Assembly: GCA_029855935.1 (NCBI GenBank)
Contig: JAGSHN010000005.1
Span: forward strand, 1-64,000
Direction: 5' to 3'
DNA: 64,000 bases
From: Candidatus Thorarchaeota archaeon
GTDB lineage: Archaea; Asgardarchaeota; Thorarchaeia; Thorarchaeales; Thorarchaeaceae
The first letter of the stretch is position 1. Every line of letters begins with the position of its first letter. Made by a program: the position numbers and the translations under genes. The notes under the pieces were generated by a model. It worked only from the letters and a program-made list of their open reading frames with translations, was not told the DNA's origin and did no database searches. Below are positions 32,903 to 39,631 of this stretch, one piece after another.

Positions 32903-35851
32903 CTATATCTCGCCCGCCTCTTCCTGCATAGAGAGGAGTATTCTGTCGGTGGCGGTCACGGCCTGCTTTATGGTCTTCAGGTATTCCTGGCGAGTCTTCT
33001 CAAAGGCAGCCCGGCTGATGCGCTGCTTCTTCTTCCGCAACAGGAGCTGACGCAGCCCAGCCTTTGCACCCTCCATTCTCTCCTCCTGCAGCTCAAGCTG
33101 GGCAATCATATCGCGATACCGTGAGCCGTATTGCATAAGCTCCTGCTTCAGCGAGGAGAGCTCGGACTCTATCTGCTGCAGCTGGCTCTTGATGTCGCGT
33201 TCGCGAACCATGAATTCGCGTTTGGACACCTTGCCTTTCCTCCGAGCCGACTCCAGCTTCTCCAGGTCAAGATTTAGTGCCGTCTTGCGAGAGTATGTCT
33301 TTGCAAACGAACTCAGGAGCTCGGGTGGTGCGCCCACCTGTGCGGCAACAGGGCCGCCCCTAGCTGCGGCCTCAGTAGTCACTTCAAGACGCGCCTTCCT
33401 TGCCACGACGTAGGCCGCTGCCACAAGTCCCACTATTGCAGAGAATATGAGTGGACGAGCAAAGACGCCAATTGTGACCTGATAGATGAGATAGCTCCGG
33501 GGGGGATTGTGGACAGTGGTGTTGAAGTAGCTATACCGGAAGATTGCATTGAATGGCCCACTGAGCAGTCTGTACTCGCCGGATATGTAGACCACGTTGA
33601 CACTCGTGGGAATGATTATGTCGACAGTGTGACTCCGGACGAGTAGCTCATCGAGAGTGGCCATCGGGAAATCAATCCTAAGGCCCCGGGGGACAACCTC
33701 CTGATACTCGGGCAGATAGATGTCGTATTCCACATTGAAGGTGTACTTGTAGTTCGGCCAGAAGCCCTTCTCACCGAATCGGTCGGCCTTGAGATTAATG
33801 CGCTGGTCGAAGGTGGCATTCCAGTCATAATCGTGAGGCATAGATGCTGCCAAGATTCCCACTTGATCGTAGATTCGGATGTTTGACGCATACGCTGGAA
33901 ACGTGAACGTGAGATCGTTCTCACGCGCGGGACCGATGTTGTCAACGTGTATTGTTTCTTTGTAGTGAAGCCAGCCCCATGGGTCCACAGTTATCTCCGT
34001 TGTCCGCGTGGCGGCAAGAAGTGGTGTGAACGACTTTATGACAATCTCGAAAGACTCTACTGTCATGGGAGCTATGTTCGTGTACACACCCTCTGGATTG
34101 GTACCTGAATGCAGGCTGTCGCCACTCCGAAATCCTATCGTGAATGACAGCCGGGAGATGACATATGGGACCACCGGATACTTCAGAAAGCGCATCTCGT
34201 AGAGGTTGTCATCGGAGTTGATGAGTGTGTGAGTCGAATGGAAGAACATTCGGACCGTGAATTCGTATGTTTCGCCAGGCTCGACTTGATCCAAGAAGTA
34301 GACGCGCCAGCGGTACATTCCGTTGTAGTCACCCACACGGACGACCTGTAGCGCTGCCTCACTCTCACTCTCGGCCTCTATGGACATGAAGTTTGACGTG
34401 TAGGGCTTTGGGAGAAACACGTCGAAAGCGCTGATTGGAACGGCGTCATCGTTTACGATTGTGAAAACGTCTTCAGACTTGACCGAGTGATACAACAGTG
34501 TGCTGACCGTTCGGGCCACCCTAAGAGTGATTCCAAGCAACGGCGTGTAGGGAATCTCGACGGTCACATTGATGAACATCACCGAGGTTGTGTTGGAGGG
34601 GTCTGTTGCATTGAACCAGAGCGTATGGGCCGTGCCCGACTCATAGTCAGACACGTCAAGCACGCCAGTCCACAGATCAGACTTGAAGTCGTACTCAAGC
34701 GGATTCCACGACTCGTTGTCAAATCGGAAAAAGGCCCGTCGCACCCATGAGTTGTCTGTGATGTTGATGCGGAGGTCCATAATCCAGTCAAGTGAGTCGC
34801 CATCCTTGGGACTCACAGGATTAATCCTAGGCGGCGTATTCGGCACGAGCCGAATCATCATCGGGCTCGACCAATCCGTATGACGCACGGGAAAGCCGTC
34901 GATGTCCTCATCAGCACCAATAAGTAAGACAAAGGGATAGTAGATGTTGTTGGCGCTGACAAGAGGAACGTCGTTGGTGTCCGTACTGTTCATCCGAATG
35001 AAGTACTCAATGCTGGTGGTAGCACCGTTGTCGCTAGCGTTTGCTGCCAGTATTCTGGTCGAGTCGTCATCAGGAAGGTGGTTGAACGTGCTGACACCGT
35101 GATCGTCACGATAGACAATTCTGCTGTAGTCAGCCGGGTTCTCCTCGCTGGACCCAATCTTGCGAAGTGTCACCACGTACTCAAGGTCCTTTCCGTAAAG
35201 CTCGTGGCCAGGGGAGTTGTAGGCCTCCTCCGCGGGGATTATGAAGTGTCTGACCTCGCCCACGCGCATGCCAATTATCGCCTCCTTGTAGGCGGTCAGC
35301 AGCTTTTCCTCATTGAGGGGTGTATCCCCGGTTCCGTCCGGGGCCATCCCCTCCTCCAGCAGAGTCCCGTTCCTGTCGTATAGACGATACTCGACCGCCA
35401 CGACCTCATTTCCGGTGACACGTGGAAATGCCTTATGAGGTGTTCCGGGAGCAAAGCCATAGACTAGGTCCGTGTTGTTCAGGCCATCGGTGGTATAGGT
35501 GCCATTGGGAGCCTTCCATCCTATGCCAACCCAACCCGAGGTGGGAGCCTCTAGGCCGACGAATAGAACGGATGAGTTGTGCTCCATATAGACTGTGACT
35601 CCCGTCGCAGGGTCTGTGAAGTTGAGGGCATACTCCTGCGGGTCGATTATCCCATCTGCATAGCCATAGTGCTGGTCGACAAATGGAGCCGAGATGTTGG
35701 GCAAAGAGGATGCCAGCACAGGCTGAGGGCTGTTTGACGACAGAGAAACCGGATGCGTACCGAGTGTACCGTCAGCTGGGAGAGAGCTCAGTCCAACCAA
35801 CAGTGTCAACAATGCCACGACAATGATTTGTCTATGCAGATGGTTCAACAC
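32903..35851 (-). CDS. Ribophorin I (OST1)-like membrane protein with DOMON-like and FKBP-like domains
   Basis: A 982-residue protein. A signal peptide (about 1-27) leads to a DOMON-like domain (57-135, VLFVGLEAPTSGWVGIGW), an FKBP-like domain (150-233, EAIIGMRVGEVRHFIIPAEEAYN), an Ig-like stretch (340-435), then two domains (440-790) closely matching ribophorin I. Parallels with human ribophorin I include LLAATRTTEITVDPWGWLHYKE (610-631), YDQVGILAASMPHDYD (661-676), FPNY/YTFNVEYDIYLPEYQEV (about 698-719) and DELLVRSHTVDIIIPTSVNV (734-753). One transmembrane helix (800-817) and a cytoplasmic coiled coil (856-970) follow, as in ribophorin I. Many NxS/T sequons occur outside. Ribophorin I is a structural oligosaccharyltransferase subunit; STT3 is not in this window. 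Confidence 0.85.
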   Translation of the reverse strand: MLNHLHRQIIVVALLTLLVGLSSLPADGTLGTHPVSLSSNSPQPVLASSLPNISAPFVDQHYGYADGIIDPQEYALNFTDPATGVTVYMEHNSSVLFVGLEAPTSGWVGIGWKAPNGTYTTDGLNNTDLVYGFAPGTPHKAFPRVTGNEVVAVEYRLYDRNGTLLEEGMAPDGTGDTPLNEEKLLTAYKEAIIGMRVGEVRHFIIPAEEAYNSPGHELYGKDLEYVVTLRKIGSSEENPADYSRIVYRDDHGVSTFNHLPDDDSTRILAANASDNGATTSIEYFIRMNSTDTNDVPLVSANNIYYPFVLLIGADEDIDGFPVRHTDWSSPMMIRLVPNTPPRINPVSPKDGDSLDWIMDLRINITDNSWVRRAFFRFDNESWNPLEYDFKSDLWTGVLDVSDYESGTAHTLWFNATDPSNTTSVMFINVTVEIPYTPLLGITLRVARTVSTLLYHSVKSEDVFTIVNDDAVPISAFDVFLPKPYTSNFMSIEAESESEAALQVVRVGDYNGMYRWRVYFLDQVEPGETYEFTVRMFFHSTHTLINSDDNLYEMRFLKYPVVPYVISRLSFTIGFRSGDSLHSGTNPEGVYTNIAPMTVESFEIVIKSFTPLLAATRTTEITVDPWGWLHYKETIHVDNIGPARENDLTFTFPAYASNIRIYDQVGILAASMPHDYDWNATFDQRINLKADRFGEKGFWPNYKYTFNVEYDIYLPEYQEVVPRGLRIDFPMATLDELLVRSHTVDIIIPTSVNVVYISGEYRLLSGPFNAIFRYSYFNTTVHNPPRSYLIYQVTIGVFARPLIFSAIVGLVAAAYVVARKARLEVTTEAAARGGPVAAQVGAPPELLSSFAKTYSRKTALNLDLEKLESARRKGKVSKREFMVRERDIKSQLQQIESELSSLKQELMQYGSRYRDMIAQLELQEERMEGAKAGLRQLLLRKKKQRISRAAFEKTRQEYLKTIKQAVTATDRILLSMQEEAGEI

Positions 35852-36046: not shown

Positions 36047-37078
36047 TTGTATCTGCTGCTACTCTCAGTCCTAATCGCCTTCGTGATAGTCATCGTCGTG
36101 ATGCCGAGCACTATCCGGCTTCTACAAGAGAGAGGCCAGATGGGCATTGATGTGCACAAGCCGGATCAACCCGAGGTCCCCAAGGGGGGCGGCTTTGTGG
36201 TGCTGTTCGCCATTGTGACCTCTCTGCTCCTCATCATAGGCGGCACCACATTCACAGATGGAGTTGCCAATCCAGCACTCCTCGCATCACTCGTTTCAAT
36301 TCTGATGGCTGGAATGATTGGTCTACTGGACGACAATCTGGACTTCAGGAATCGGACTAAGATTATCCTCCCCCTATTGGCCTCAATACCATTGGCAGCA
36401 GTACGCGCAGGCACTACAAAGATGGCCATTCCCCTCATAGGCGAGATCAACCTTGGCCTGATGTATCCACTTGTCATCGTGCCACTGATGATGACATTCA
36501 TTGTCGACTCCACGAACATGTACGGCGGCATGAATGGCCTTGAGGCGGGGCTCGCAGCCATCAATTCTTCAGCCATTGTCTTGTATGCGTTCCTGTGGCC
36601 CCTATTTACCGGCTCGACACAACCGCAGTCGACCATTGAGGCAGGCATCGTCGCAGGAGCGCTTATGGGGGCCTCTGTAGCGTTCTGGCTGTTCAACAGG
36701 TACCCGGCCAAGGTTCTGCCCGGCGACGTTGGAAGACTGCCAATGGGTGCGGCGATAGCAGCAGCTCTCATTCTCGGGAATATGGACAGGTTGGCAATAC
36801 TGCTCTACGTTCCCTTCGGCCTCAACTTTCTGTTGTACATAGTGTACCGACTCCATGTGAGGAGGACTGGCATGGAGTATGCGAAGTTTGCATCTCCAAG
36901 GGAGGACGGTACCCTTGAGGTTGTTGGACCATTCACGGTCTACTGGATAGTACCGTATCTGTGGAGAGTCACAGAGAAGAGGAATGTGGAGATTCTTCTG
37001 CTTGTCCAAGCAGTAATAGCGTATGGTACGGTGTTGATGTTGCTGCTGGGGTATCCCTTCGGCGTCGGCTGGATCTAG
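36047..37078 (+). CDS. Alg7-like polyprenyl-phosphate GlcNAc-1-phosphate transferase
   Basis: A 343-residue multi-spanning GT4-type membrane enzyme, expected to move GlcNAc-1-P from UDP-GlcNAc to a dolichyl phosphate carrier, the first step of N-glycan assembly. Hydrophobic segments alternate along the whole chain. Motifs resembling eukaryotic Alg7: DVHKPDQPEVPKGGG, GLLDDNLDFRNRTKIILPLL, VDSTNMYGGMNGLEAG and RYPAKVLPGDVGRLPMG. Alg7 has a conserved Asn-Gly in the same loop. A C-terminal RVTEKRNVE helix is present. Start TTG 36047. It is divergent from the ribophorin I-like gene and overlaps top6A by 4 nt at the 3' end. Confidence 0.88.
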   Translation: MYLLLLSVLIAFVIVIVVMPSTIRLLQERGQMGIDVHKPDQPEVPKGGGFVVLFAIVTSLLLIIGGTTFTDGVANPALLASLVSILMAGMIGLLDDNLDFRNRTKIILPLLASIPLAAVRAGTTKMAIPLIGEINLGLMYPLVIVPLMMTFIVDSTNMYGGMNGLEAGLAAINSSAIVLYAFLWPLFTGSTQPQSTIEAGIVAGALMGASVAFWLFNRYPAKVLPGDVGRLPMGAAIAAALILGNMDRLAILLYVPFGLNFLLYIVYRLHVRRTGMEYAKFASPREDGTLEVVGPFTVYWIVPYLWRVTEKRNVEILLLVQAVIAYGTVLMLLLGYPFGVGWI

Positions 37079-38127
37079 CCCAGCTTGTCAGCCAGATAGT
37101 GCTCCACCACAAAGTCCATGCCATACCTGCTGAAGGCCTGCTGCTCGGCCTTCTTGCGCAGGGACTTGAAGCCAGCAATATGATGCTGACATTCTGGAGA
37201 GCTGTATCGCACATCGTTAGACAGTTCGTCCAGCCGGCGGAGATCTGCATCATTTAGAGGCTCAGTGGGAAGAGTGTAGTCCCGGATATCGTCGGGAGTA
37301 ACACCAATCCAAGCGGCATCAGGTACTACGAGACCAGGGACATGTGCGGCGTTCGCACTACCAGAGATTATGACTCGTGCGATGTGCATCCCCCACGGAT
37401 CACCATCCGTGAAGATGTACACCGGCAGGTCTAGGGCATCATGCAGGAGACGAATCATACGACGGGTTGCACGTGGCGGCTGGCCCCCCAGATGGACGAG
37501 AATTGCTCTGAAACGCTTCCACGCCCCTGTCTCGATGAGGCGGGAGAACATGCCACCAGACTCAACTGCAAGAATGAGTTTCGCATCCGCTGAGATCGGC
37601 TCTGCGGTGACAAGTGCGGGTCCTATTGGGAAACCGTCCGGGCTGAGGGTAAGGTCGATGACCCTGCCCTCATATCCGGGCACTGTATACCTCATCTTGA
37701 CCGCCCCATAGATTGAGGACCTCTCTTCAGGAAATATGCCGAAGTCCTCGCGGGAGAAACCCGTGACACACTCAAGGTCGGCCACTGTACGGTCAGACTC
37801 GGCCTGATCCTTGAACCTTATTCCAAAGGCCTCGGCGGAGTAGTAGAGGTCCCTTAGCGAGCTTGTCCGCCCAGACACAAGAAGACGCTTCGCATACGAT
37901 GCCACCCAGACCAGCTGAGCGAAGCTGCGGATGTGCTTCAGGTTGCTCGAGTCCCTGACCACCTTCTTGGGGCCCATCACAAATTGGTGACGCTGCTCAT
38001 CAAAGACTATGTTTGTAGTTCCCCTGTCGGGAATCTCGAGTACTGGGAACTCGCCAGAGCGAATGCTCTCGACTATGCGATGGCCTATGCCACGAAGCAG
38101 ATGCAGGGGCTGGGCAGGGTCACTCAT
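37075..38127 (-). CDS. top6A: DNA topoisomerase VI subunit A
   Basis: A 350-residue Spo11-like cleavage subunit. The CAP domain includes the catalytic tyrosine in SSLRDLYYSAEAFG (Tyr95/96). The TOPRIM metal residues are Glu in LAVESGGMF and Asp in FTDGDPWGMHI. ATG 38127 is used; it overlaps the end of top6B by 8 nt, as in most archaea, so production of the two subunits is coupled. Decatenation and relaxation of chromosomal DNA is the expected role; this is in addition to the topoisomerase IB gene upstream. Confidence 0.96.
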   Translation of the reverse strand: MSDPAQPLHLLRGIGHRIVESIRSGEFPVLEIPDRGTTNIVFDEQRHQFVMGPKKVVRDSSNLKHIRSFAQLVWVASYAKRLLVSGRTSSLRDLYYSAEAFGIRFKDQAESDRTVADLECVTGFSREDFGIFPEERSSIYGAVKMRYTVPGYEGRVIDLTLSPDGFPIGPALVTAEPISADAKLILAVESGGMFSRLIETGAWKRFRAILVHLGGQPPRATRRMIRLLHDALDLPVYIFTDGDPWGMHIARVIISGSANAAHVPGLVVPDAAWIGVTPDDIRDYTLPTEPLNDADLRRLDELSNDVRYSSPECQHHIAGFKSLRKKAEQQAFSRYGMDFVVEHYLADKLG

Positions 38128-39631
38128 CAATATCAACTCCAAACAGTGTCTGGACAAGGTGGCCCGTAGGGGGCACTGGAACATCCGCGAGCTCGGCACC
38201 GTATTTCACAACAAGGGAAAAGAAGCGCTTGAACTCCCTCAATCGCCGCGACTCACGAGCCGCACGTGCTCGAGATCCTGATAGTCTACCTAACTTGCGC
38301 CCCAGGTCCCTGTAGAGATGCTGAACCTCTGTCTCTATCTCAGGAATGGTGTCTATCGACTGTTTTCCTGCTGCCCGGTAGGGAATTCTCGTTGAACATA
38401 CGTGGACGAGGATCACAGGAGTGCCGAGATCCATTATGCCGTATCTTGACCAGTTCGTTTCACGGAGGCCCTTGGTGAGTACACAGCCACTGGCATCATA
38501 GAGCAAAGGTACTCTGTTGGCAAATCTGTAGAGGATTGGGAAACTGCCAGATGTGTTGCGAAACCCCCTCGCGACACAGAGGACCGCCTCGATCAATAGC
38601 GGGTTGCCATTCCACTCTGTGGGGCCCCTCACGGCATATGCGGCAATGTCACACTCAAAGAGAGAACGAACTGCAGTCAGCATCGGTTCCTTTCCTACAG
38701 GGCTGAGGCAGTCTGAGGACGGTTTCTGAATGCCCTGAAAGGAACGCAGCGCGGAGCTCAGGGTAAGAATGTCATCACGGTCCAGTTCCGCTGTCTTCCT
38801 ATTCGGGTCGATGTTTGCAAATCTCAGTAGTCGGCTGGCTGTTCTCGTACCCAGCTGTTGAAACGAACTGACGAGGAACTCCCTGACCCGGATGCCGGGA
38901 CTCGCGGATATCATACGACGCAATAGTTCCACATCAGCAGCTCGAGGGTGCGGCCGACAGACTCGTGACCGTCTTGGGAGTTCGCGCGTGTGTGGACCGA
39001 CACGAATGTGACTATCATCAATTGAGAGGGAGAACAGAACGTGCGGAGATACTATGGTACTCAGGCGCACATAGTCCAGTATACGTTCCTGGGAGCGCGC
39101 GAGATTGCCTCTCAGACGGATTGTCACTGTCGTCCCGGGACCTTCGCGCTCGCCCTCGCTCTCACTGACCACTACGGGCCTGTTCTTCTGTACGTCAATC
39201 AGTATCTCAAATCGCTTGGCCGGCTGTTCGCCACACTTGGTCTCCACCATGACTGGGGAATCTGTCGTAATCTGACCGTACAGAACAGCCATAGTGACAC
39301 CAAGGCCAAAGGTACCTCGTTGCTGACACATAGCGAACTTGCTGCCAAAGAGAACCCGACCGAATGCCTCGGGAACATGCTCATATGAAACCCCTGATCC
39401 ATTGTCTGTCACCGAAACTTCGTAGGTCTTAGGGGCCACTGTGCGGACCCTGATGTCGACTACCGGATTGACACCAGCGAGGTCACATGCATCGAGACTG
39501 TTCTCGACGAGTTCACGAACTGTTGAGAACAGGGCTTGTGCAGGATTGCCAAAGCCCGCCATCTGTCTGTTTCTGTAGAAGAATTCTGCTGGCGAGATAC
39601 TCCCGAATGAGTCATCTGGTAACGAGTCCAT
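38120..39631 (-). CDS. top6B: DNA topoisomerase VI subunit B
   Basis: A 503-residue GHKL ATPase subunit. Bergerat-fold motifs: ELVENSLDACDLAG (box N), VTDNGSGV (G1), GTFGLGVTMAVLYGQ (G2) and GPGTTVTIRL (G3). An H2TH domain (about 215-280, LLRMISASPGIRVREFLVSSF) and a transducer with Lys switch (PFRK-type region NRVPLLYDASG) follow. It lies downstream of the KH-domain gene on the same strand. Confidence 0.96.
   Translation of the reverse strand: MDSLPDDSFGSISPAEFFYRNRQMAGFGNPAQALFSTVRELVENSLDACDLAGVNPVVDIRVRTVAPKTYEVSVTDNGSGVSYEHVPEAFGRVLFGSKFAMCQQRGTFGLGVTMAVLYGQITTDSPVMVETKCGEQPAKRFEILIDVQKNRPVVVSESEGEREGPGTTVTIRLRGNLARSQERILDYVRLSTIVSPHVLFSLSIDDSHIRVGPHTRELPRRSRVCRPHPRAADVELLRRMISASPGIRVREFLVSSFQQLGTRTASRLLRFANIDPNRKTAELDRDDILTLSSALRSFQGIQKPSSDCLSPVGKEPMLTAVRSLFECDIAAYAVRGPTEWNGNPLLIEAVLCVARGFRNTSGSFPILYRFANRVPLLYDASGCVLTKGLRETNWSRYGIMDLGTPVILVHVCSTRIPYRAAGKQSIDTIPEIETEVQHLYRDLGRKLGRLSGSRARAARESRRLREFKRFFSLVVKYGAELADVPVPPTGHLVQTLFGVDIDE

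Follow-up and report, generated by a model that had tools for sequence, protein, structure and literature searches.

A predicted FKBP-in-DOMON module at the N terminus of the thorarchaeal OST1/ribophorin I homologue

In Thorarchaeota, the oligosaccharyltransferase subunit OST1 (ribophorin I) is enlarged by an outward N-terminal extension in which an FKBP is predicted to be nested inside a DOMON domain, and which we lean towards interpreting as an extracellular substrate-handling module on the oligosaccharyltransferase. OST1 is among the eukaryotic signature proteins that Asgard archaea also possess, and what it does in a cell that has no endoplasmic reticulum is largely untested; Thorarchaeota are Asgard archaea near the ancestry of eukaryotes. 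OST1 was already known from Asgard archaea (PMC10307638, PMC8813620, PMC11417166) and what is new is the thorarchaeal N terminus, no report of an FKBP or a DOMON fused to OST having been found in the open-access literature. That FKBP and OST1 are encoded as one covalent chain is evidence, at the level of the genome, for a common site of action of the folding and N-glycosylation machineries, and it turns their co-location into a question that can be tested with purified proteins.

The window analysed here is the whole stretch of 64,000 nucleotides (contig C14:1-64000) from a genome of 2.97 Mb that is 97% complete. Positions 32903-35851 of its minus strand form an uninterrupted frame of 982 codons with a GTG start, and some 30 relatives align with the 982-aa protein over its full length at 45-61% identity, in frames that are free of stops. 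Relatives in Candidatus Thorarchaeota, AB_25 and SMTZ1-45 among them, place the window in this Asgard lineage. This is a genuine gene conserved across Thorarchaeota. Its parts, and the gene divergent from it, are as follows:

35762..35851, minus strand: signal peptide, residues 1-30, from the GTG start (hydrophobic stretch in windows 5-10; start aligned with relatives)
35444..35689, minus strand: DOMON first half, residues ~55-136 (hhalign to the stand-alone Asgard DOMON profile, E 8.8e-16, columns 32-107 of 228)
35147..35416, minus strand: FKBP predicted to be nested in the DOMON, residues 146-235 (Pfam FKBP_C 1.7e-7; Foldseek to FKBP13/SlyD, TMt 0.7-0.76)
34895..35125, minus strand: DOMON second half, residues ~243-319 (hhalign E 1.4e-8 alone, columns 109-189 of the DOMON profile)
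34547..34837, minus strand: Ig-like domain, residues 339-435 (strands in the N-terminal AlphaFold2 model, residues ~342-431)
33473..34540, minus strand: OST1/ribophorin I ectodomain, residues 438-793 (profile match to OST1 of human and yeast; eight best Foldseek matches all OST1)
33395..33472, minus strand: transmembrane helix, residues 794-819 (hydropathy; helix in the AlphaFold2 model)
32906..33334, minus strand: cytoplasmic four-helix domain of ribosome-binding type, residues 840-982 (phmmer to 8whn_A, E 1.2e-6)
36047..37078, plus strand: glycosyltransferase family 4 gene (GlcNAc-1-P transferase type), divergent from OST1 (Pfam PF00953, 1.5e-27)

Where a thorarchaeal locus extends far enough for the neighbour to be seen, the family 4 glycosyltransferase gene nearly always adjoins OST1, and the order of OST1, the glycosyltransferase and genes for an HD-domain protein, Trm112 and gcvP is retained across Thorarchaeota. 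Overlapping genes for topoisomerase VI A and B (37075-39631) lie beside the glycosyltransferase, an arrangement conserved in most of the lineage and missing at this place in a few loci (L102, L103, L114 and L118). Separately, N-X-S/T sequons are enriched in the 982-aa protein at residues 31-142 (35426-35761; 5 vs 1.1 expected) and at residues 339-437 (34541-34837; 5 vs 1.4 expected), with none in the cytoplasmic domain.

The identity of the C-terminal part is carried by profile and fold tests. The Pfam family Ribophorin_I (PF04597) has no match in the 982-aa protein or its genome, and a family profile and the predicted fold were therefore used instead; PF04597 matches 14 of the 19 members of alignment A2 (best 4.9e-32) and is a remote model for the thorarchaeal sequences. 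A profile (A3) of residues ~436-982 and 18 relatives matched human OST1 (6s7o_E) with an E-value of 1.8e-49, positions 44-584 of 590 aligning to human residues 22-606, MK-D1 OST1 (8whn) with 6.5e-39 and yeast OST1 with 6.4e-21. An AlphaFold2 model of the whole protein (mean pLDDT 78, high over residues 440-790) retrieved OST1 chains as its best eight Foldseek matches in the PDB (E 1.4e-28 to 3.1e-17). Matches to calicivirus, tropomyosin and integrin proteins were low-scoring and were set aside as coiled-coil or multi-domain beta-sandwich chance matches. Residues 438-982 are thus, as judged from profile and model, a true OST1/ribophorin I, in which the OST1 body, the membrane helix and a cytoplasmic domain of ribosome type can all be recognized. 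The initial annotation had recognized this homology through ectodomain, membrane helix and cytoplasmic region, all of which stands, but the simple coiled coil that it placed in the cytoplasm is better described by four predicted helices (843-871, 877-906, 910-942 and 947-978), as in the bundle of 8WHN.

Upstream of this body, FKBP_C is matched by the 982-aa protein at 31.9 bits (cut-off 21.1) and by 20 of 20 relatives scanned with Pfam. The model of residues 48-437, computed from 41 sequences (pLDDT 91.5, pTM 0.85), has FKBP13, SlyD and FKBP2 (TMt up to 0.76) as well as Ig-like modules among its Foldseek matches. Single-sequence Pfam matches to DOMON are weak in this region. A profile was built from ~30 stand-alone Asgard DOMONs, which align on both flanks of the FKBP, and the two halves were compared with it separately by hhalign (segments of residues 48-145 and 236-338). 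The second half scored 53.6, and shuffled controls at most 17.6; when the halves were joined with the FKBP removed, the match reached 99.4% (E 3.2e-21), while the FKBP and Ig parts gave no match to the same profile. The finding that the two halves match adjacent columns of one DOMON profile argues for insertion of the FKBP into the DOMON, and a simple tandem of DOMON followed by FKBP was dropped for that reason. Profiles and model together thus place the FKBP inside a split DOMON, with an Ig-like domain predicted to join the module to OST1. Both of the N-terminal domains first proposed, DOMON-like and FKBP-like, are therefore present, but their order was misread, since the FKBP is nested and the DOMON runs on to ~319-338, and the Ig-like domain (~339-435) had been overlooked. 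Of the 20 relatives scanned, 17 have a match to Pfam Big_7, and the 982-aa protein itself has one only weakly, at residues 268-292; stretch 295-387 of the N-terminal profile also matches many other Asgard ORFs.

A closer look at the FKBP pocket was taken with FKBP12 as reference, the relevant positions of which we take to be Y26, F36, D37, I56, W59, Y82 and F99. Five of these (Y26, I56, W59, Y82 and F99) correspond to Y155, L185, Y188, Y211 and Y225 of thorarchaeal OST1, which are invariant or nearly so among 41 sequences. In the same set, Gln or Glu replaces Asp37 in 39 of 41 sequences and the Phe36 position is mostly Ile, Leu or Val, so that strong prolyl isomerase (PPIase) activity is doubtful in a domain whose pocket is kept. 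As for the DOMON, heme-type members use a Met and a His as ligands (PMC10691727), and nearly all stand-alone Asgard DOMONs retain both residues. Heme binding by the OST1 DOMON was ruled out because the Met position is Leu or Ile in 41 of 41 sequences; sugar binding, by analogy, is possible. An FKBP_C scan of the source genome matched only OST1 and one 317-aa frame. Elsewhere, other Asgard families have stand-alone, membrane-anchored FKBPs that are predicted to be extracellular (L125-L135), two of which (L130:1207-1968 and L134:1560-2327) combine a signal peptide, an FKBP, a membrane helix and a basic tail in an FKBP11-like layout.

The genome also encodes the expected partners of OST1, as a search for STT3 and OST3/6 found homologues of both on the same contig. 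STT3 (934 aa) lies beyond the window at C14:141446-144247, and the two features that matter here are:

L124:5447-5977, i.e. contig C14 ~141446-141976, outside the window: DOMON-like domain suggested at the C terminus of STT3 (hhalign)
L124:12196-12621, contig C14, near STT3: OST3/6 homologue of 141 aa, membrane half only, without thioredoxin domain

The last ~170 residues of thorarchaeal STT3 are found only in this lineage, homology with other Asgard STT3 stopping near residue 760. This tail matches the DOMON profile with a probability of 94.8% (E 5e-8; score 54.6, shuffled controls at most 23.3) and the OST1 DOMON with an E-value of 9e-6, while seven other Asgard STT3 tails gave no match to the profile (probability under 2%). 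Pfam and PDB searches with the tail returned nothing convincing; since the support comes from profile-profile comparison, its assignment as DOMON-like is suggestive. Other Asgard STT3 frames (L201-L207; 1038-1306 aa) have long C-terminal extensions of their own, with Ig-type repeats by eye, none of them matching DOMON. In other Asgard genomes, OST3/6 matches are likewise mostly of the membrane half, or are separate thioredoxin-like stretches elsewhere.

How might such an extended OST1 work? In the substrate-handling interpretation that we cautiously prefer, the cytoplasmic domain would be a docking site for the ribosome alongside the Sec channel and the OST1 body would be a neighbour of STT3, while the FKBP pocket, which the DOMON holds in place, would bind proline-containing stretches of the emerging chain awaiting glycosylation. 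Acting as a holdase or a slow isomerase, the FKBP could keep acceptor loops accessible or let folding begin, and the DOMON, along with the DOMON-like domain of STT3, could serve as a scaffold or a glycan-binding partner. In favour of this scheme are the profile and fold matches of OST1, FKBP and nested DOMON, the conserved pocket, the presence of the module in 44 of 47 thorarchaeal genomes, the scarcity of other FKBP_C matches in the genome, the occurrence of STT3 and OST3/6 genes on the contig that carries OST1, the suggested DOMON-like C terminus of STT3, the binding of ribosomes by the cytoplasmic domain of MK-D1 OST1 (PMC11417166) and that of the translocon by human FKBP11 (PMC12804085); against it are the Gln or Glu found at position 37 in 39 of 41 sequences, the mostly aliphatic residue at position 36 and the pocket of human FKBP11, which is buried by a partner. 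We infer from the conserved pocket that folding might be coupled to glycosylation, as initially suggested, with the caveat that the catalytic Asp is replaced by Gln or Glu. A more ambitious version, which we put forward only tentatively, is that thorarchaeal oligosaccharyltransferase has evolved its own extracellular folding module, in which an FKBP with PPIase or holdase activity is set in a glycan-recognising DOMON that faces the DOMON-like domain of STT3, while eukaryotes separately recruited FKBP11 in trans. Were this true, chain capture, folding and glycan transfer would be joined in one complex.

The best surviving alternative, which we nevertheless regard as unlikely, holds that the module is no more than a structural spacer or a surface adhesion arm; its FKBP would then be a rigid insert without catalytic activity, and glycosylation would proceed as in other Asgard archaea. 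The loss of the catalytic Asp would fit this, as would the fact that DOMON and Ig-like modules are present in many other Asgard ORFs. It would also be consistent with a thorarchaeal paralogue (L112:6129-7889) that lacks the OST1 body and carries the DOMON[FKBP]-Ig module together with an extra domain, a Ser/Thr linker and a membrane helix; having its own membrane anchor, this paralogue indicates that the module is able to exist apart from OST1. However, near-invariance of the five pocket residues (n=41) goes beyond what a spacer would need, and all genera sampled have the module joined to OST1. Alternatively, and with a lower probability still, the module might be an adaptor whose FKBP pocket binds a surface partner that gates or positions substrates, rather than the nascent chain, much as FKBP11 does with CCDC134. 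This would account for a conserved pocket without the catalytic Asp and has a precedent at the translocon, where human FKBP11, its pocket buried by a partner, was read as an adaptor and not an isomerase (PMC12804085). Nevertheless, FKBP11, which is not singled out as a closest relative in sequence, offers a parallel in location only.

A substrate-handling module would in any case be an invention of this lineage. Searches with the N-terminal profile found the fusion in 44 of 47 Thorarchaeota genomes, across 13 genera, the three genomes without a match being 86%, 60% and 87% complete, and in 0 of 181 other Asgard genomes, where pieces of FKBP, DOMON or Ig type were seen only separately, in other genes; most genomes compared are metagenome-assembled. 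OST1 itself was found in 45 of 45 high-quality genomes of the phylum, and the frames listed for other Asgard families (~500-714 aa) begin directly with the OST1 ectodomain. Since no Asgard family searched other than Thorarchaeota has it, the extension is derived rather than ancestral, and a single gain is the simplest reading. The opposite idea, floated in the initial annotation, that the extended protein preserves an ancestral oligosaccharyltransferase design can draw on the Asgard-wide presence of OST1 but is extremely improbable, as it would require many independent losses and conflicts with the count of 0 in 181, with solved eukaryotic OST1 chains that have no extension and with the grouping of thorarchaeal OST1 sequences as one (support 100/100, in a tree of unknown root).

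Other translocon-associated systems offer instructive comparisons. In eukaryotic OST, the OST3/OST6 subunit carries a thioredoxin-type folding domain, which like the OST1 FKBP is folding-related and borne by an OST subunit, although both the fold and the subunit differ. Human RPN1 and yeast OST1 (6s7o, 6c26) share ectodomain and membrane helix with the thorarchaeal protein, and the human chain a cytoplasmic bundle as well, but no DOMON, FKBP or Ig-like N-terminal module is seen in these structures, so that the absence of the first two from eukaryotic OST1 had been rightly noted. MK-D1 OST1 (8WHN; PMC11417166, PMC10307638) has the same ectodomain, single membrane helix and cytoplasmic four-helix ribosome-binding domain, the last of which binds ribosomes (PMC11417166), whereas, like other non-thorarchaeal Asgard OST1, it is without the DOMON[FKBP]-Ig module. 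At the human secretory translocon, FKBP11 is bound beside OST-A (PMC12804085; PDB 9n9j). It shares with the arrangement proposed for thorarchaeal OST1 an FKBP outside a ribosome-bound translocon, beside OST, and contact with the ribosome by the same protein, but it is not fused to OST1, being an independent protein that has a membrane helix of its own. Orthology was rejected, as FKBP11 matches the thorarchaeal FKBP with an E-value of 0.036, below many FKBPs, with FKBP2/FKBP13-type and plant FKBPs scoring better; not being singled out as the closest sequence relative, it is a parallel in location, for which no homology is claimed. Taken together, the OST1 fusion, the putative DOMON-like domain of STT3 and human FKBP11 suggest that the translocon-OST core acquired substrate-handling modules on more than one occasion.
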